The notes beneath the pieces are model-generated. The model saw nothing but the letters and a program-made list of their open reading frames with translations, searched no databases and was not told the origin of the DNA. Below, piece by piece: positions 16,797 to 24,552 of a DNA stretch of 64,000 bases; the first letter of the stretch is position 1; each line of letters begins with the position of its first letter. Source of the stretch: Mesorhizobium sp. C432A (GTDB lineage Bacteria; Pseudomonadota; Alphaproteobacteria; Rhizobiales; Rhizobiaceae); NCBI RefSeq assembly GCF_030323145.1, contig NZ_CP100470.1, positions 5,621,001-5,685,000 of the forward strand, given 5' to 3'. Both the position numbers and the translations under genes were made by a program.

Positions 16797-17186
16797 ATGA
16801 ACATGACGAAATCTTTGACTATTGCCGGCCTGTTGCTGGCGTCACCTATAGGTGTCGGCGGCGCGCAGGCCGGTGACGAGCTAGGGTCCTACGTCGCGCG
16901 CATTTCCGATCGCGACCACCATGCCAGCGACGGCTATGGGCTGAGCAGCGCAGCACAGATGGTGCGGCAGGACCGTGCCAACTGGCACAAGTTCCACCGG
17001 CGCGATGCCGACGACCAGGGCGATGACTGGTTCCGCAGCAACGATGATCGCGCGTATCTGGAACGCATGCTGAAGCGCGGTGGCGCGATGAGCTCCTCGA
17101 CACGGAACGCCATCGTCAATGGCGAGCCGCTGATCCAGGTCGACGTCTATTCAGACAGCGTGCATGTCAGCATTTTGGAGGACTGA
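16797..17186 (+). CDS. hypothetical exported protein
   Basis: 129 residues of unknown function. It begins with a signal peptide (MTKSLTIAGLLLASPIGVGGAQA) and has AGGAGAGCGAGG upstream as ribosome-binding site. The mature protein is hydrophilic, with many His and Asp residues (DRDHHASDGYG, HKFHRRDADDQGDDW). It ends with a short beta-like VDVYSDSVHVSIL. The His/Asp content might suggest metal binding, but no known motif is seen. It is followed by a hairpin terminator. Confidence 0.65.
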   Translation: MNMTKSLTIAGLLLASPIGVGGAQAGDELGSYVARISDRDHHASDGYGLSSAAQMVRQDRANWHKFHRRDADDQGDDWFRSNDDRAYLERMLKRGGAMSSSTRNAIVNGEPLIQVDVYSDSVHVSILED

Positions 17187-17216
17187 CGGGTCAGCCTCGG
17201 GAGGACTGAAAACAAG

Positions 17217-17242
17217 ACGGGCGGCGTGTGAACGCCGCCCGT
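17217..17242. terminator. hairpin terminator between convergent genes
   Basis: ACGGGCGGCGT, loop GTGA, ACGCCGCCCGT: a perfect 11-bp stem in the gap between the plus-strand exported-protein gene and the minus-strand glyS stop. Read on the minus strand it is followed by CTTGTTTTC, so it most likely ends the glyS transcript and may work in both directions. Confidence 0.75.
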
Positions 17243-17261
17243 GTTCGGGCTTGTCCGTCGC

Positions 17262-19766
17262 TTAGCCAGCTATTCTGGAAAAATCCGCGACCTGATCGGT
17301 GGCCGTGCGGATGCGAGCCAGCAGCGCCAGGCGGTTGGCGCGCACGGCCTGGTCCTCATCATTCACGAGAACGCGTTCAAAGAATGAATCAACCGGTTCA
17401 CGCAACACGCTAAGCGCCAGCATGGCGGCGGAAAAGTCTTCGTTTTGAATCGCTTCGCCGGCTTCTCTCTCCGCCTGATTCACCGCCGCAAACAGCGATT
17501 TCTCGGCCTCCTCGCGAAACAGCGCCGGCTCAACAGTCGCGGCGACACGCGTTTTCTTCTTCTCCTCGGCAGCCAGAATGTTGGCCGCGCGCTTGGTGCC
17601 GGCGAGCAGGTTCTTGCCGTCCTCGGTGTCGAGGAAGTAGCCGAGCGCTTCGACGCGGCGCACGATCTGCAGGAGGTCATCCGACTGCGGCGTGATGACC
17701 GCATCGATGAGATCGTGGCGGGCGCCCTGGTCGCGGAGATAGACTTTCAGGCGGTCGTGGAAGAAGGCGATGAGGTCGGAGAGAACTTCTAACGAGCCTC
17801 GAAACGTATACACCTCCGCGATCTGACCGCTTTCAAAACGTGCATAGTTACAGCCGTCTGTTAGGTAAATCTCCCGACCTTCGTCCGAAAAATCATACTG
17901 CCCCCAAAGGGTGTCCGGATGGTCCTCTGGCAATTCAAAGTCCGTCGGATCTATCTCCGTTACCACTAGCTTGCGGCTGTGCAGCCGGTCGTATTGGGCG
18001 GTATGAGCAGCTCTTAGCAAACTCAACATTGCCAGCTTGATGCCATTCTCGACCAATATCCTGACTACACCCAGTGCGGCCCTTCTCAGCGCGTAAGGGT
18101 CCTTAGACCCCGTCGGCTTTTCATCAATGGCCCAGAAGCCGACCAGCGTGTCGAGCTTGTCGGCCAGCGCGACGGCAATCGACACCGGATCGGTCGGCAC
18201 GCGGTCGGACGGACCTTGCGGCTTGTAGTGCTCCTCGATCGCCGCGGCCACGGACGGATGCTCGCCTTGCAGCAGCGCGTATTTGCGGCCCATTGCGCCT
18301 TGCAGTTCCGGAAACTCGCCCACTGCTTCTGTCGTGAGATCGGCCTTGGCCAGCACAGCGGCGCGAGCGGCGAGCGCGGTAATCTCCCCCCTCGAGGGGG
18401 AGATGTCGCCGAAGGCGACGGAGGGGGTCGTCTCGCGTGGAGCGCCAACTCCCTCTTTCTTCGAGAGACCGGACGGCGTCGCGGCAGCCGAAGCGACCCC
18501 CTCTGGCCTGCCGGCGATCTCCCCCTCAAGGGGGGAGATCGACTGCGCCACTGTTGGCGCCAGCTCTTCCGCCAGCCGCTTGATCCGCTCCACCCGCTCG
18601 CCTTGCGTGCCGAGCTTGGCGTGGAAAGTCACCCCGAGATGGTCGAGGCGGGCCATGCGTTGGTCGAGCGGCTTTTTCAGATCGAGCCCGAACTTTTTTG
18701 CCGATGCCTCGAGCTCTCCCAGATCGGGCAGATCGCCCTGGTCGGTCCGCCAGAAGTACAGCGCATCCGACAGGCGCGCGCGCACCACCTTGCCGTTGCC
18801 GTGCGCGATCTCCTTGCCGCCATCCTTCGCCTCGATGTTGGCAGTGAGGATGAAGCGGTTGGAAAGGTTTTCGCCGTCGCCTTGCGGACGGGTGACAAAG
18901 CATTTCTGATTGGCGCGAATGGTCAGCCGCACCACCTCGGGCGGAATGGCAAGAAAGGCCTGCTCGAATTCGCCCATCAGCACCACCGGCCATTCGACCA
19001 GGCCCGACACTTCCTCCAGCAGCCCTTCGTCCTCGACCAGATCGAGCCCGTTGGCGAAGGCGAGGTTGCGGGCGTCGGCAAGGATGATCTCCTTGCGCCG
19101 GTCGCCGTCGAGCACGACCTTGGCTGCTTCCAGCTTGGTCACGTAATCGTCGAAGCGACGCACGGTGATTTCACCCGGCGCCATGAAACGATGGCCGTAG
19201 GTGATATTGCCCGAGCGGATGCCATCGATCTCGAAATCGACCACCACCGGCTCCTCGGTCTCCGGCCCGAAGGTGCACAGAATCGTCTGCAGCGGCCGCA
19301 CCCAGCGCAGCGAACCGGGCTTCGCCGAAGCCGGCCCCCATCGCATCGATGTCGGCCAGGGGAAGCCGCGAATGATGGCCGGCACCAGTTCGGCGATGAT
19401 TTCTTCCGCCGCCCTGCCCGGCTTCGAAATATGGGCGACGTAGAAGTCGCCCTTCTTCGGATCGGAATGGACATGCGCCTCGGCAGCCGAGGCAAGACCT
19501 GCCTTGCGCAGAAAGCCCTGCACCGCCTGTTCCGGCGCCGTCGTCGACGGCCCCTTGATCTCCTCGTGGATATCCTTCGAGCGCGCGGTCAGGCCCCTGA
19601 CATCGAGCGCCAGGCGCCGCGGCGTCCAGTATTCGCGCGCGGCGTCATAGGTCAGACCCGCCTCGACCAGACCGTCGGTCAGCATCTTCCTGAGATCGCC
19701 CGCCGCCTTGCGCTGCATGCGGGCGGGGATTTCCTCGGAGCGGAGTTCCAGCAACAAATCCGGCAT
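17262..19766 (-). CDS. glyS: glycyl-tRNA synthetase beta subunit, with an in-frame repeat insertion
   Basis: 834 residues; the family is usually about 690-760. With GlyQ it charges tRNA-Gly in the alpha2beta2 enzyme, the beta chain supplying the HD domain and tRNA-binding body. The N-terminus [20 protein letters not shown] is canonical, and [23 protein letters not shown] and a C-terminal DALR-like region follow. Residues about 409-462 do not belong to the family: they are the translation of an intergenic-type palindromic repeat (18381-18540) that keeps the frame open. The first 16 codons also occur three more times upstream in tandem. Only the start at 19766 gives the full protein. Its partner glyQ lies 1.2 kb upstream, separated by the repeat array and a nuclease gene. 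Confidence 0.95.
18381..18540. repeat. composite palindromic repeat inserted in frame within glyS
   Basis: Two opposed hairpin halves: CTCCCCCCTCGAGGGGGAG with a GCCGAAGGCGACGGAGGGGG tail on the left, and GACCCCCTCTGGCCTGCCGG leading into CTCCCCCTCAAGGGGGGAG on the right. The same arrangement is intergenic at 37541-37690. Here it adds about 53 codons to glyS, translated as [16 protein letters not shown] and DISPSRGEI at its two ends, without a stop or frameshift. Confidence 0.9.
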
Positions 19767-19885
19767 CAGAGTTTCTCCACCCGCATGCCTTCTCCCTGAT
19801 TGCGCGTCCTCGCGCCTCCGGCGCTGCGGTTGCGCGGCCGGGCGGGGATTTCCTCGGAGCGAAGTTCTAGCAAAAGATCAGGCAT
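19766..19885 (-). CDS. leader mini-ORF 1 duplicating the glyS N-terminus
   Basis: 39 residues: [16 protein letters not shown] followed by a basic linker peptide ending GMRVEKL. The stop TGA shares its A with the glyS start ATG (TGATG), an arrangement typical of translational coupling. All of its differences from glyS in the first 15 codons are synonymous. Expression is not known; it may only be a relic. Confidence 0.4.
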
Positions 19886-20004
19886 CAGAGTTTCTCCACC
19901 CGCATGCCTTCTTCCTGATTGCGCGTCCTCGCGCCTCCGGCGCTGCGGGCGCGCAGCCGGGCCGGTATTTCCTCGGAGCGAAATTCCAGCAACAAATCCG
20001 GCAT
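19885..20004 (-). CDS. leader mini-ORF 2 duplicating the glyS N-terminus
   Basis: 39 residues, same design as the mini-ORF just downstream, with one replacement in the shared segment (Leu8 to Phe). Its TGA overlaps the ATG of mini-ORF 1 in TGATG. Confidence 0.4.
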   Translation of the reverse strand: MPDLLLEFRSEEIPARLRARSAGGARTRNQEEGMRVEKL

Positions 20005-20123
20005 CAGAGTTTCTCCACCCGCATGCCTTCTTCCCGTTTGCGCGTCCTCGCGCCTCCGGCGCTGCGGTTGCGCGGCTGGGCGGGAATCTCTTCCGAGCGG
20101 AGTTCTAGAAGCAGATCAGGCAT
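20004..20123 (-). CDS. leader mini-ORF 3 duplicating the glyS N-terminus
   Basis: 39 residues. The shared segment differs from glyS at nine positions in 15 codons, all synonymous, with a Gln in place of Arg16. It is the copy nearest the nuclease gene and its TGA overlaps the ATG of mini-ORF 2. It may mark the ancestral glyS start site. Confidence 0.4.
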   Translation of the reverse strand: MPDLLLELRSEEIPAQPRNRSAGGARTRKREEGMRVEKL

Positions 20124-20136
20124 AGTTAGGCTCCCA

Positions 20137-20189
20137 CCCTCCCCTCGATGGGGAGGGTCGGCGCGCAGCGCCGGGGTGGGGTGGCGACC
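20137..20189. repeat. dispersed palindromic repeat, left of the nuclease gene
   Basis: CCCTCCCC-TCGAT-GGGGAGGG hairpin followed by a CGCCGGGGTGGGGTGGCGAC tail. A related element in opposite orientation lies at 20607-20660, so the DUF559 gene is bracketed by two inverted copies. Confidence 0.75.
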
Positions 20190-20191
20190 TC

Positions 20192-20593
20192 TCAGCCGCC
20201 GATACCTTCGGCACCATCGCGCAAACGCAGGTGTGATTTTCGTTCTTCCACCGCCGCATAGATCGTATCGAGCACGGAATCCAGTTCGTTTTTGATTTCA
20301 TGGTTCCAGAAGCGGATGACTCGATAACCCTGGCTCTCAAACCATTTCGTTCGACGTTCGTCATGGTGCTGTTGGCCATCGAAGCTGTGCTGGACACCGT
20401 CCACCTCAATGATCAGCTTCAGCCGGTGGGAGATGAAATCAGGGAAGTAAACGCCTACCGACGCCTGCCTGCGAAAATGAGTGCCTTCTACTGGAATGCG
20501 CCACAGATGCCGCCACAGGATGCGTTCCTCGTCGGTCATCGCCGCGCGAAGCCTTTGCGCAGACTGCAGCTTGAATCGATCGAGTTTTGGCAT
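20192..20593 (-). CDS. DUF559 (Vsr-like) endonuclease domain protein
   Basis: 133 residues, a complete DUF559 protein of the PD-(D/E)XK, Vsr-like group. Key features: an N-terminal helix with TDEERILWRHLW, FRRQ, then YFPDF (catalytic Asp), IIEVDGVQH (E-x-D-G) and the C-terminal GYRVIRFWNHEI strand-helix. Members are presumed DNA nucleases; some relatives behave like free-standing homing endonucleases, others are of unknown role. It lies on the minus strand between glyQ and the array of duplicated glyS starts, bracketed by inverted repeats, which suggests it is a mobile passenger in the glyQ-glyS operon. The ATG at 20593 gives the normal N-terminus; the upstream open frame crosses the repeat. 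Confidence 0.88.
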   Translation of the reverse strand: MPKLDRFKLQSAQRLRAAMTDEERILWRHLWRIPVEGTHFRRQASVGVYFPDFISHRLKLIIEVDGVQHSFDGQQHHDERRTKWFESQGYRVIRFWNHEIKNELDSVLDTIYAAVEERKSHLRLRDGAEGIGG

Positions 20594-20606
20594 GGAACGT
20601 CGCGCT

Positions 20607-20660
20607 GTCACCCCACCCGCCGCTTCGCGGCGACCTCCCCATCTAGGGGGAGGTAAGAGG
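20607..20660. repeat. dispersed palindromic repeat, right of the nuclease gene
   Basis: CACCCCACCCGCCGCTTCGC followed by GGCGACC and CTCCCC-ATCTA-GGGGGAG. It is the inverted partner of the element at 20137-20189. Confidence 0.7.
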
Positions 20661-20814
20661 GCATAGCAACTCGGCTGACCGCTGTTTCCAGAAATTTGAC
20701 CGCCCCTGTCGGGCCGCAACCAGCCCGCCCGTCCTTGGATCAAAGATTTCCATGAACCAAACGCAGCGCTGAAGCGACCAACGCTCAGGCAGGGAACTTA
20801 TTGGCTGAACGACC

Positions 20815-20985
20815 ATGAAAACGGCATCGAGACTCCTCCAGATCATCGCGCTCAGCGCCTGTTTCGCCGCGCAGGTGCATGGCGCCTTCTCGATGCCGGG
20901 CGTACGGCAGGCTATGCGGACCATGGCGGGGTCGACTGGCCCGATATTGGCCCCAATCAACATTTCCCTCGAAATGATGAAGTGA
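20815..20985 (+). CDS. possible small exported peptide (56 aa)
   Basis: An ATG-to-TGA frame of 57 codons opposite in direction to glyQ and the nuclease gene. It starts MKTASRLLQIIALSACFAAQ, which looks like a Sec signal peptide with cleavage near QVHG. A short tail, SMPGVRQAMRTMAGSTGPIL, continues to EMMK. The ribosome-binding site is weak and no family is recognised. It ends 4 bp before the convergent glyQ stop. It could be a chance frame; the signal-peptide character is the only positive evidence. Confidence 0.35.
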   Translation: MKTASRLLQIIALSACFAAQVHGAFSMPGVRQAMRTMAGSTGPILAPINISLEMMK

Positions 20986-20988
20986 GCC

Positions 20989-21933
20989 TCAGGCGGCGAG
21001 CCCGCCGGCCTGGGTCTGCAAAAATGCCTCGCCGCAGGCCTTCGCCAGATTGCGCACCCGCAGGATGTAGCTCTGCCGCTCGGTCACCGAAATCACGCCG
21101 CGCGCGTCGAGCAGGTTGAAGACGTGGCTGGCCTTGATGCACTGATCATAGGCCGGGAAGACCATGCGGTGCATCGGCAGATTGTCGTTCGAAGCCGGGG
21201 CGCCGGCCGCGAGCAGCGCCTTGCATTCGGCTTCGGCGTCCTCGAAATGCCTGAGCAGCATGGCGGTGTTGGCATATTCGAAATTGTGCCTGGAATATTC
21301 CTGCTCGGCCTGCAGGAAGACATCGCCATAGGTGACTTTTTCGGCGCCTTCTCGGCCATTGAAGTTGAGGTCGTAGACATTGTCGACGCCCTGCACATAC
21401 ATGGCCAGCCGCTCCAGGCCGTAGGTCAGTTCTCCCGCCACCGGCGCGCATTCGATGCCGCAGACCTGCTGGAAATAAGTGAACTGCGACACTTCCATGC
21501 CGTCGCACCAGCACTCCCAGCCGAGCCCCCAGGCGCCAAGCGTCGGGCTTGCCCAGTCGTCCTCGACGAAGCGAATGTCGTGCAGCAACGGATCGACGCC
21601 GATCGCCTTGAGCGAGCCGAGATAGAGTTCCTGCAGGTTCGGCGGGTTGGGCTTCAGGATCACCTGGTACTGGTAATAATGCTGCAGCCGGTTGGGGTTT
21701 TCGCCGTAGCGGCCGTCCTTGGGCCGGCGCGAGGGCTGGACGTAGGCGGCGTTCCAGCCCTTGGGCCCGAGCGCGCGCAGCGTGGTGGCCGGATGGAAGG
21801 TGCCGGCGCCGACTTCCATGTCGTAAGGCTGCAGGATGACGCAGCCATAGGCGGCCCAGTAATTGTGCAGGGTCAGGATCAGCCCCTGGAACGAGCGGCT
21901 GGGATGCATATGGGCTGGACTGTCTGACGTCAC
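20989..21933 (-). CDS. glyQ: glycyl-tRNA synthetase alpha subunit
   Basis: 314 residues. This catalytic subunit of the alpha2beta2 enzyme activates glycine and transfers it to tRNA-Gly. Class II motifs and family blocks are intact: [20 protein letters not shown] at the N-terminus, [38 protein letters not shown] and [13 protein letters not shown]. The GTG at 21933 has GAGG upstream and is chosen; an ATG eight codons in is the alternative. In most relatives glyS follows closely; here a small nuclease gene and a repeat array intervene, so co-transcription is less certain. Confidence 0.96.
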
Positions 21934-22109
21934 GGCGGCCTCGGAAAGCGCTGAAATGATGCCATTCCCTAGTTGCCGGGCCGGTAGGCGTCAAGGCAGC
22001 GCCTATCGCCGCCTTGATGAGAGGTTGAACGCTTTGCTTCGGACTGGCCCATTGCCGGACGGTGCCGGTGGCCGTTTGCTCGCCCAGCTTCAACGACAAA
22101 GGTTCAGCC

Positions 22110-22571
22110 ATGCAAGGCCAGTTCACCGTACGCCCCGTCACCCGAGAGGATTACGAGCAATGGCTGCCGCTGTGGGACGGCTACAATGCGTTTTACGGCC
22201 GCTCGGGCGAGACCGCCTTGCCCGGTGACATCACTGCAATGACATGGTCGCGCTTCTTCGATGCCTATGAGCCGATGCATGCGCTGGTCGCCGAGAGCGA
22301 AGGCAAGCTTCTCGGCCTTGTCCACTATCTCTACCACCGCACCACGACGGCGATTTCGCCGAACTGCTATCTGCAGGATCTCTTCACCAATGAGGCGTCG
22401 CGCGGCAAGGGCGTCGGCCGGGCACTGATCGAAGACGTCTATACCAGGGCGCAAACCGCAGGCTCCAGCCGCGTCTACTGGCTGACACACGAAACCAACC
22501 ACACGGCGATGAAGCTCTACGACAAGATCGGCGATCTCTCGGGGTTCGTCGTCTACCGAAAGCTGTTCTAG
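22110..22571 (+). CDS. GNAT family N-acetyltransferase
   Basis: 153 residues forming a single GNAT domain. VRPVTREDYEQWLPLW opens the fold, and LQDLFTNEASRGKGVGRALI is the acetyl-CoA pyrophosphate-binding motif A (R-G-x-G-x-G/A type). YWLTHETNHTAMKLYDKIG is motif B. The acceptor is unknown; it could be a small amine, an antibiotic or a protein terminus. The ATG at 22110 is chosen because the preceding codons of the open frame look non-coding. It is divergent from glyQ and stands alone. Confidence 0.85.
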   Translation: MQGQFTVRPVTREDYEQWLPLWDGYNAFYGRSGETALPGDITAMTWSRFFDAYEPMHALVAESEGKLLGLVHYLYHRTTTAISPNCYLQDLFTNEASRGKGVGRALIEDVYTRAQTAGSSRVYWLTHETNHTAMKLYDKIGDLSGFVVYRKLF

Positions 22572-22589
22572 AATGAGCGCCAACGCTGG

Positions 22590-22720
22590 GTCTGCGCCGC
22601 GTCGCTTCGCTCCTTGCTCCGCCATAGAATGACGATCGCGATAGGGCGTCTCTATCTCTTTGTTTCTGTCGCAATTCCGAACGGAAAACCGCGCACACTT
22701 TCCTGGAATTGCTCTAAGAC
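22590..22720. repeat. two dispersed repeats in the gap after the GNAT gene
   Basis: At 22590-22634 lies a second copy of the CGTCGCTTCGCTCCTTGC repeat ending CATAGAATGACG. At about 22655-22720 lies GCAATTCCGAACGGAAAAC with a closing GGAATTGCTCTAA, the same hairpin type as at 15982-16025. Confidence 0.75.
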
Positions 22721-22727
22721 GCCAAGC

Positions 22728-22757
22728 CGAAAAAACGGGGCTCAGCGAGCCCCGTTT
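22728..22757 (-). terminator. rho-independent terminator of the TPR gene
   Basis: On the minus strand AAACGGGGCTC, loop GCT, GAGCCCCGTTT followed by a run of T and then CGGC. A perfect 11-bp stem with a T tract, 20 bp after the stop of the minus-strand TPR gene. Confidence 0.88.
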
Positions 22758-22776
22758 CATCAGAAGTATGGCCCGA

Positions 22777-24552
22777 TCACCCCTTCGGCGCTGGCGGGGT
22801 GGCCGGCTTGACCTTCGGGGTTTCCTGCGCCGTGTTGGATTCGATCGGCGGCAGGCCCTTCATCAGCTTCTGCTGCAAAATGGCAAGCACATCGGGATCC
22901 GGCTTCAGGTCGCGCGCCTGATTCCACTGGAAAGTGGCTTCGAGCTTGCGGCCGACGCGCCAATAGGCATCGCCGAGATGGTCGTTGAGCACCGGATCTT
23001 CCGGCTTGAGCGACACGGCGCGCTCCATTTCGCGCACGGCGTCGTCGAACCGGCCCATGCGGAAATAGGCCCAGCCCAGCGAATCGACGATGTAGCCGTC
23101 GCTCGGCCTGAGGTCGACGGCCTTCTGGATCATCGCCAGGCCTTCCTTGAGGTTCATGTTCATGTCGACCCAGGAATAGCCGAGATAGTTCAGCACCTGC
23201 GGCTGGTCGGGGAACAGCTCAAGCGCCTTGAGGAAGTTCGGTTCGGCCTTCGGCCATTCCTTCAGCCGCTCATAGGCGATGCCGCGCTGATAGTAGATGT
23301 TCCAGTTGGCATTGGTCGGCGTCTTCAGCACCGCGACCGCCTTGTCGTAGAGAGTGGCGGCGGAGCGGAAATCCTCCTTCGAGGCATAGACCCCGCCCAG
23401 CGCCAGATAGGCGCGCATGTCATCGGGGTGAGCTTCGACGAATGCCTTGAGATGGGCGATAGCCTCGTCGTGACGGTTGAGATCGGCAAGGTTGAGGCCG
23501 AGCTGCAGGTCGGAAAGCTCCTTCAGCGGCGAGGAGGCTGGAATGCGGCTATAGAGCGCAATGGCGCCTTCGCCGTCCTTCAGCTGCTCCGCAACGGCGG
23601 CAAGCTGCACCAAAGCGGCGTCGCTGTCGGGCTTGAGCGCGAGCGCATATTGCAGATAGAGGCGCACGAACGGCTCGCCGCCGCCGCGATTGAGCGCGAT
23701 GGCGAGGTCGAGCAGGATTTCAGCGGCGCCTTCGGAGGGACTGGCGACGAAGGGCTCGATCTTGTCGCCCTTGCTGATCCTGTCGCGAAGCGCCTGGATG
23801 TCGAGCTTGCCGGGCGCGAACGCCTCGGCCTTGTCGAGCACGTAGAGCGCCTTGTTCTTGTTTCCCTTGCGCGCCAGGAAAGACGCGTAGGCCTGGGCGT
23901 TGCGCATCCATGTCTCGGGCGCGGCACCGCCGGCCGTGACGTCGGTCAGGGTCGCGTCATAAAGCGCGTCGGCCTTGTCCGATAGGCCTGCGGCATCGGC
24001 GATCAGCGCGCGGTGGAAGGACTTGAACAGGCCGAACCAGTCAGGCCCCTGCAGTTTGTCGATCGAGGCCATCGCCCCGGTGGGGTCGCCGGCGCCCTCT
24101 TGTGCCCAGCCGGACATGACGCCGGAAATCAGCCGGTCGAGATCGGATTCGAGCGACAGCTTGAGCCAGTACTGCGCCTTGGTGAAATCCTTCTTGTGGA
24201 AGGAATCGACCGCCAGAGCAAGACGCGAGAAGCGCTCGACGTCGGGAACTGCCTTGAGCTTGTCGGCATAGACCAGCGATTCCTCGAAGCGGCCTTGCGC
24301 GATCAGCGACAGCATCAGGCTTTGCTGCAGCGAGGTGTCGCCGGGATTGAAGGCGAGCGCCTGCTTGTAATAAGCGATGGCATTGTCGAGGTCGTTGTCG
24401 CCTTCGGCGATGCGGGCGGCCAGATAGGCGCCCGAGAAGGAGGTGATCTTGACCGGGTCGGTCGATTCCTTGGCGTAGGCAGGCAGCGGAGAAATCGCCA
24501 TCCCTGCCACAATTGCCAGCCCCGCGAGCCAGCGCGCACGTCCTTGCCGCAT
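22777..24552 (-). CDS. exported tetratricopeptide repeat protein
   Basis: 591 residues. A signal peptide (RWLAGLAIVAGMAISPLPAYA) leads into a run of at least ten TPR units, for example DLDNAIAYYKQALAFNPGD, PNFLKALELFPDQPQVLNYL and DGYIVDSLGWAYFRMGRFDD. A Pro/Lys-rich tail follows. TPR solenoids hold protein complexes together, and exported ones in alphaproteobacteria often act in envelope assembly or export; no specific partner can be named. The ATG at 24552 begins the signal peptide. It is single and ends at a clear terminator. Confidence 0.85.
   Translation of the reverse strand: MRQGRARWLAGLAIVAGMAISPLPAYAKESTDPVKITSFSGAYLAARIAEGDNDLDNAIAYYKQALAFNPGDTSLQQSLMLSLIAQGRFEESLVYADKLKAVPDVERFSRLALAVDSFHKKDFTKAQYWLKLSLESDLDRLISGVMSGWAQEGAGDPTGAMASIDKLQGPDWFGLFKSFHRALIADAAGLSDKADALYDATLTDVTAGGAAPETWMRNAQAYASFLARKGNKNKALYVLDKAEAFAPGKLDIQALRDRISKGDKIEPFVASPSEGAAEILLDLAIALNRGGGEPFVRLYLQYALALKPDSDAALVQLAAVAEQLKDGEGAIALYSRIPASSPLKELSDLQLGLNLADLNRHDEAIAHLKAFVEAHPDDMRAYLALGGVYASKEDFRSAATLYDKAVAVLKTPTNANWNIYYQRGIAYERLKEWPKAEPNFLKALELFPDQPQVLNYLGYSWVDMNMNLKEGLAMIQKAVDLRPSDGYIVDSLGWAYFRMGRFDDAVREMERAVSLKPEDPVLNDHLGDAYWRVGRKLEATFQWNQARDLKPDPDVLAILQQKLMKGLPPIESNTAQETPKVKPATPPAPKG

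Follow-up and report, generated by a model that had tools for sequence, protein, structure and literature searches.

Tandem glyS starts in Mesorhizobium sp. C432A and a family of small hairpin units at conserved gene ends, possibly a miniature gene-restoring cassette

The glyS start array

In a 64,000-nucleotide stretch of Mesorhizobium sp. C432A (contig NZ_CP100470.1, positions 5,621,001 to 5,685,000; hereafter the window), the gene glyS raises a simple question: why does it begin four times? The first 16 glyS codons are present in four copies on the minus strand, with ATGs at 20123, 20004, 19885 and 19766 and a period of exactly 119 bp, and the 834-aa glyS frame includes only the last of them. 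The four 48-bp copies differ pairwise at 13, 9, 11, 7, 5 and 6 positions, all codon differences being synonymous except L8F in the second copy and R16Q in the outermost, whereas the three 71-bp linkers are better conserved, with 5, 3 and 4 positions differing. These numbers reproduce those of a first-pass annotation of the window, which had proposed that an element linked to a neighboring DUF559 gene inserted repeatedly at the glyS start. We lean, without great assurance, towards a reading that keeps the insertion and drops the DUF559 gene, in which the units would belong to a family of miniature, gene-less, site-specific cassettes that restore the gene they enter.

Toward the gene body, a unit opens with a hairpin core and continues with a purine-rich stretch of 8-12 nt, a target-complementary segment and a gene-end copy that reaches to the junction (Table 1). 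The core, of about 39 nt, has the form CCGCGCGNCCGCAG-stem-loop-CGAGGACGCGC, and its pattern occurs three times in the window against 0.01 expected from 100 dinucleotide shuffles.

Table 1. Positions of the glyS array and its surroundings in the window (a slash within a sequence marks the junction, here and in the text)
Feature	Position	Strand	Basis
glyS, target gene (tRNA_synt_2f)	17262..19766	-	
Junction J, glyS codon 16/17 boundary (GCCCGC/ATGCAG)	19718..19719	-	empty/occupied comparison
Unit 3, adjoining the gene body and ending in the functional glyS start (ATG 19766)	19719..19837	-	
Junction-complementary segment, unit 3	19780..19788	-	
Core hairpin, unit 3	19798..19837	-	covariance model R1, 55.4 bits
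Unit 2, made up of core, complementary segment and a glyS start copy (ATG 19885)	19838..19956	-	119-bp period
Junction-complementary segment, unit 2	19899..19907	-	
Core hairpin, unit 2	19917..19956	-	covariance model R1, 57.2 bits
Unit 1, made up of core, complementary segment and a glyS start copy (ATG 20004)	19957..20075	-	119-bp period
Junction-complementary segment, unit 1: GCATGCGGG, reverse complement of CCCGC/ATGC	20018..20026	-	
Core hairpin, unit 1	20036..20075	-	covariance model R1, 54.9 bits
Outermost copy of glyS codons 1-16, a relic with native-type codons (codon 16 is CAG)	20076..20123	-	
DUF559 gene, neighbor outside the element	20192..20593	-	PF04480, 3e-35

We compared the glyQ-glyS interval across the genus. 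glyQ was found in 144 of the 146 genus genomes, C432A included, and the stretch downstream of it was taken from 140 of the other 143, leaving out G121 (contig end), G064 and G072; two of the 140 stretches lacked glyS, and the remaining 138 plus the window gave 139 intervals. The empty sites expected under repeated insertion exist: 112 intervals have a single start and 27 are occupied by one to three units, with two starts in 23, three in 3 and four in the window. Start spacing is 119 bp throughout except at loci L152 (113) and L221 (117), and the 11 aligned pairs of occupied and empty intervals share an identical junction, after codon 16. Among the matches listed, no single-copy genome has the linker before glyS, and none of the 112 single-copy loci has a junction-complementary segment of at least 8 nt in the 40 nt before its start. 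Array presence agrees with the glyS tree no better than by chance (26 carriers among 135 require 23 parsimony changes, against a shuffled mean of 24.2 and minimum of 20), a scatter that fits rapid gain and loss and also an old element lost many times.

The copies within an array are of two kinds. The first follows the native leader and has the native-type codons of single-copy relatives; the last does not. In a comparison of 24 of the 27 arrays (L195, L197 and L221 omitted) with the nearest single-copy genome, differences per nt in functional starts fall from 0.406 over codons 2-6 to 0.100 over codons 7-15 and 0.060 over codons 17-30; the outer copies show 0.081 and 0.127. CCGGAT, the usual beginning of functional copies in arrays, was found in no single-copy genome, and of the codon differences between outer copies and native starts 104 are synonymous and 3 are not. 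The relic starts are like the native starts of relatives, and the functional starts are foreign in codons 2-6 and diverge to the ordinary degree past the junction, which supports the earlier proposal that each inserted unit brings a recoded start and leaves the older one as a relic. Drift after a simple tandem duplication of the glyS start would give the exact period and the varying array length of 2 to 4 starts. We consider it very improbable in view of the synonymous bias in the relics and the lack of the linker in the single-copy genomes listed; it is further contradicted by the combination of core and complementary segment, which is missing from the single-copy loci and common to unrelated genes, as described below.

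Across the 27 arrays, each of the 32 upstream copies reads on in frame through the linker and ends at the next ATG. In 31 of them the stop overlaps that ATG by one base (TGATG or TAATG), the copy at L221 stopping directly before it, and the length changes of the relic frame keep the frame, at 37, 38 or 39 codons. On the simplest reading, ribosomes would enter at the native leader and then be handed on to the next start.

One hairpin unit at unrelated gene ends

A BLAST search with one linker, which gave the first, unbiased matches of the family, revealed that its first 37-47 nt match outside glyS in many genus genomes, often in tandem at 96-107 bp. Within the genus the same layout was found at the 3' ends of mmsA (TIGR01722) and ilvC (PRK05479) and at the 5' end of hisF (TIGR00735), and the targets read in the order are glyS, hisF, rnhA (PF00075), groEL (PF00118), tRNA-Gln (ARAGORN call, anticodon ttg), ilvC and a leuA/cimA-like gene with HMGL-like and LeuA_dimer domains. 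The units lie at the 5' ends of glyS, hisF, rnhA and the leuA/cimA-like gene and at the 3' ends of ilvC, mmsA, groEL and tRNA-Gln; they measure about 100-155 bp, and every unit in the intervals read is without a gene inside. The core lies on the gene sense strand at the 5'-end targets and on the opposite strand at ilvC, mmsA, groEL and the tRNA, so it is always directed into the gene (locus L392, discussed below, excepted).

The strict core pattern occurs in 77 of the 146 genus genomes, with no reversed pattern among the matches listed. Beyond the genus, the searches sampled 394 genomes of the family, 397 of the order and 313 of the class. In the family, 29 genomes, spread over 22 of 109 genera, contained the pattern, and a single match was reversed. 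A covariance model (R1) took its rows from the 78 distinct cores listed, using 56 of them; the rows were picked by a pattern fixing CCGCAG and GAGGACGCGC, and the invariance of those columns is therefore partly by construction. R1 matched 108 of the 146 genus genomes at E <= 0.05, a few weakly, 39 order genomes at E <= 0.001 and, in the class sample, only C432A itself at E <= 1e-4. The core was also present in 3 of 80 named glyQ loci, those of Mesorhizobium sp. Root552, Mesorhizobium sp. Root157 and the metagenome-assembled genome NORP169. Classification by a looser pattern left 81 of 240 matches unassigned, mostly coding sequence, the rest being outer units and loci L392, L395 and L311.

Rfam searches at E <= 1 gave no family over the cores, either in window positions 17000-23000 or in 8 loci, and a phage search gave no match. 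Two plasmid records were recovered, both matching single glyS starts, and the Shinella locus among these searches (L420) had no strict core match; with an mmsA unit as query, it was the mmsA coding sequence and not the core that matched in the best 20 of 31 plasmid records. Viral contigs gave one core-pattern match, inside an open reading frame (L311, 6559-6586, minus strand), which is indistinguishable from chance; the contig itself reads like a putative filamentous phage. Our searches of the open-licence literature turned up no such element, and an earlier description elsewhere is possible.

The hairpin is supported by compensatory change. Paired positions of the tip have changed on both sides in 36 cells, a value as high as which was reached in 0 of 500 shuffles, and sliding the hairpin partners abolishes the signal. 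In the outer stem, changes read by eye pair GCGCG with CGCGC, GCCCG with CGGGC and GTTCG with CGAAC.

The segment between core and gene-end copy is complementary to the junction of its own target as it stands uninterrupted. The glyS segment GCATGCGGG is matched by CCCGC/ATGC, the ilvC segment GTGGATCGC by GCGATC/CAC, the hisF segment GGCCGTCC by GGAC/GGCC, the tRNA segment CTACCGCCC by GGGCG/GTAG, the groEL segment GCATGGGCG by CGCC/CATGC and that of the HMGL-like gene, GCCGTCGC, by GCG/ACGGC; at mmsA, CCGTCC or CCGTCG faces GGACGG or CGACGG. The longest complementary run has a mean of 8.3 nt over 103 units and of 4.6 nt in their shuffles. It reaches at least 7 nt in 87 of the 103, as compared to 213 of 5150 shuffles (4%), and spans J in 91. 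At glyS, 17 of the 27 arrays have at least 8 nt, all across J, in contrast to the single-copy loci. The mmsA segment tracks a G/C variant of the junction, with 30 + 6 concordant units and 1 discordant (Fisher p = 3e-6 over these 37 units, relatedness not corrected), and 7 of the 44 units have neither form. Against the junctions of other targets, the segments mostly score 1.0-5.2.

Insertion, long residence and other explanations

These observations suggest how a cassette of this kind might behave. Its entry point would be exact, some 45-60 bp in from the end of a conserved gene; the displaced gene end would become an orphan and the cassette's own end would complete the interrupted gene, so that the host retains a working copy. 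A further cassette could then enter the restored site and an array would build. At glyS the orphan start stays open through the cassette and stops on the new ATG, and translation could therefore couple into glyS. That the cassettes move is what we infer from the comparison of genomes, and insertion is favored by the exact junctions between empty and occupied sites, by one core at unrelated sites and by complementarity to the uninterrupted site. The complementary segment, acting as single-stranded DNA or RNA, would select the target, and the arrays would grow by re-insertion and not by unequal recombination; scores for whether the gene-proximal unit is always the youngest were mixed.

Several observations weigh against this cassette reading. 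Across genera, the sequence of the hairpin tip goes with the target gene, a pattern suggestive of descent within each site and not of jumps from one site to another. At glyS, linker and glyS-body distances are correlated (Mantel r = 0.45, p = 0.02), as vertical descent predicts, and functional-start distances follow the glyS body with r = 0.83, both on ungapped distances. Consistent recoding is absent from the inner copies at mmsA; in that check 4 of 30 loci were unparsed and 12 were called empty, of which L382 and L387 have a core and L389 a remnant. At L362 the outer and inner copies are identical and share private variants, as local duplication or gene conversion predicts. Single units fold only weakly better than shuffles (z from 0.04 to -1.85). 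The rnhA complementarity is 6-7 nt long and lies beside J, not across it, and the cross-target control is not clean, since scores rise to 6.9 for hisF segments set against mmsA junctions and to 6.6 for glyS segments set against those of ilvC. Pairing is also possible between parts of the segment and the outer copy, which would form a stem around the core, so complementarity alone is no proof of targeting. At locus L392 (1508-1900) the 3' end of a gene encoding a MarR-type domain carries eight cores in tandem, spaced at 46 bp; these are without gene-end copies and are directed away from the gene. We saw no movement, excision or circular form in what is a comparison of sequences only, and found no candidate machinery: Y1 transposase (PF01797) has no match in C432A and occurs in 25 of the 146 genus genomes, as compared to 108 with R1.

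Part of this evidence is what one would expect of an old element that inserted once at each gene end long ago and has been kept for a host function such as coupling or tuning expression. Frequent loss would follow from recombination between gene-end copies, some regain from homologous exchange between strains, and changes in array length from unequal recombination. The sorting of tips by target, the strong conservation of the core, the 32 of 32 relic frames that run open to the next ATG, the weak agreement of linkers with the glyS tree and the missing machinery all speak for such an element. At ilvC and mmsA, however, the core lies after the stop codon and opposite to the gene strand, and a single mRNA-level function cannot account for all sites. 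Complementarity to an uninterrupted junction has no reason in a host-kept element, presence follows the tree no better than chance, and a 48-bp direct repeat would be expected to be lost over such times unless renewed. We regard this explanation as unlikely, although it deserves more weight than any of the other alternatives considered here.

A second alternative is that the units are remnants of integrase-borne islands or phages, that is, attL/attR scars deleted to about 100 bp. Restoration of gene ends at tRNA 3' ends and at conserved coding ends is the habit of tyrosine-recombinase islands (PMC12424338, PMC4383910). One core at eight unrelated gene ends, a unit length fixed for each site and one to three tandem units are difficult to reconcile with such scars; no unit with a gene inside was found among the intervals read, the glyS spacings are 113, 117 and 119, and the sole viral-contig match lies inside an open reading frame. 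We consider this origin improbable.

The link to DUF559 did not survive the comparison. A DUF559 gene is present in 33 of the 139 glyQ-glyS intervals, including that of the window, and C432A has 6 DUF559 matches. Array intervals are slightly richer in it (10 of 27 against 23 of 112; Fisher p = 0.08), and tblastn against loci L229-L310, flanks of about 1.5 kb included, gave no DUF559 match at mmsA, ilvC or hisF. The first-pass annotation had further taken recoding as a shield from recutting. The changes lie in codons 2-6, at least 30 bp from the junction, the junction of the functional copy is unchanged, and arrays of 2-3 units exist. It had also suggested the bracketing inverted repeats as possible edges of the element; the palindromes flank the DUF559 gene and not the units (20131-20156 with 20634-20659). 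A DUF559-linked homing element is in our view barely credible; the DUF559 gene and its palindromes appear to be a separate presence/absence insert, independent of the arrays as far as the counts tell.

Three mechanisms were considered and set aside. A self-splicing intron conflicts with the core lying on the strand opposite to the gene at ilvC and mmsA; target-primed reverse transcription, worked through on paper, predicts the opposite core orientation; and HUH/Y1 transposition by a resident enzyme finds no support, Y1 having no match in C432A.

A bolder proposal, which we make tentatively and rather doubt, is that the cassettes form a new class of mobile DNA, of about 100 bp and gene-less, whose own 7-13-nt segment, in the form of single-stranded DNA or RNA, pairs with the intact target and directs insertion to a single genomic site while a replacement end for the broken gene is carried along. 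Such insertion would be naturally programmable and scar-mending, served by an enzyme probably encoded by Rhizobiales hosts. If the cassettes move, they would be among the smallest site-specific mobile elements known, entering gene ends without loss of the gene at targets apparently named by complementarity. If they do not move, these conserved hairpin units, kept throughout an order at a small and constant set of gene ends, would still be an unexplained feature of basic gene structure, with a displaced start that may be translated into the real one, and they would lead to mis-annotation where genes start and end.

Some further observations were made at these loci. GC-rich palindromes flank the DUF559 gene at window positions 20131-20660. 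Palindromic repeats at 18386-18535 form an in-frame insert within the glyS frame (SPLEGEI...SPSRGEI), where two weak, below-threshold Rfam matches fall, and on the opposite strand of the glyQ-glyS interval a short frame at 20816-20986 (plus strand), beginning MKTASRLLQIIALSACFAAQ, has the look of a signal peptide. In 17 of the 144 glyQ-bearing genus genomes (L203-L219), the GlyQ match ends near residue 248 of a longer open frame and the C-terminal part of GlyQ recurs further on, which points to an in-frame insert in glyQ. At L392 the last residues of the MarR-type gene are encoded by the first core. The groEL 3' end of L404 (1321-1540) has two adjacent cores, with an apparent older, decayed unit further out, and the copies there include a terminator-like hairpin.

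Comparison with known systems

Integron cassettes are small units with a folded recombination site that form arrays at one site; here the cargo is a gene end and the sites are several and unrelated, attC motifs having been compared by eye. CTX-type phages use a folded single-stranded att site with the host XerCD, and the inverted segments in one strand of the units could likewise make a recombination site, whereas the units are without phage genes and their target is not dif. Palindromic repeats of the Rickettsia type and of rhizobia are short and may lie in frame within genes; in contrast to these scattered repeats, the units are site-specific and gene-restoring.

The REP/REPtron elements and the IS200-IS605 family (TnpAREP) include tiny non-autonomous hairpin units, and in IS608 a guide borne by the element picks the target by base pairing (PMC8266576, PMC5934647). 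The units differ from these in not being dispersed at high copy: they occupy a few fixed gene ends, carry a gene end and in most cases have 7-13 nt of complementarity, in a genome that is without the Y1 transposase.

Tyrosine-recombinase islands, catalogued by TIGER/Islander (PMC12424338, PMC4383910), enter an exact site in the end of a conserved gene or tRNA, leave the displaced end as an orphan and supply a new one. The same marks are found in the units, in which the site lies inside a conserved gene end, the gene is restored and the end is duplicated. The TIGER/Islander catalogue omits islands of less than 2 kbp and demands an integrase (PMC12424338), and could for both reasons not have listed the units. 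In contrast to such islands, the units, at about 100-155 bp and gene-less, are too small for an integrase, and they combine one structured core at unrelated sites with tandem arrays and a segment complementary to the target.

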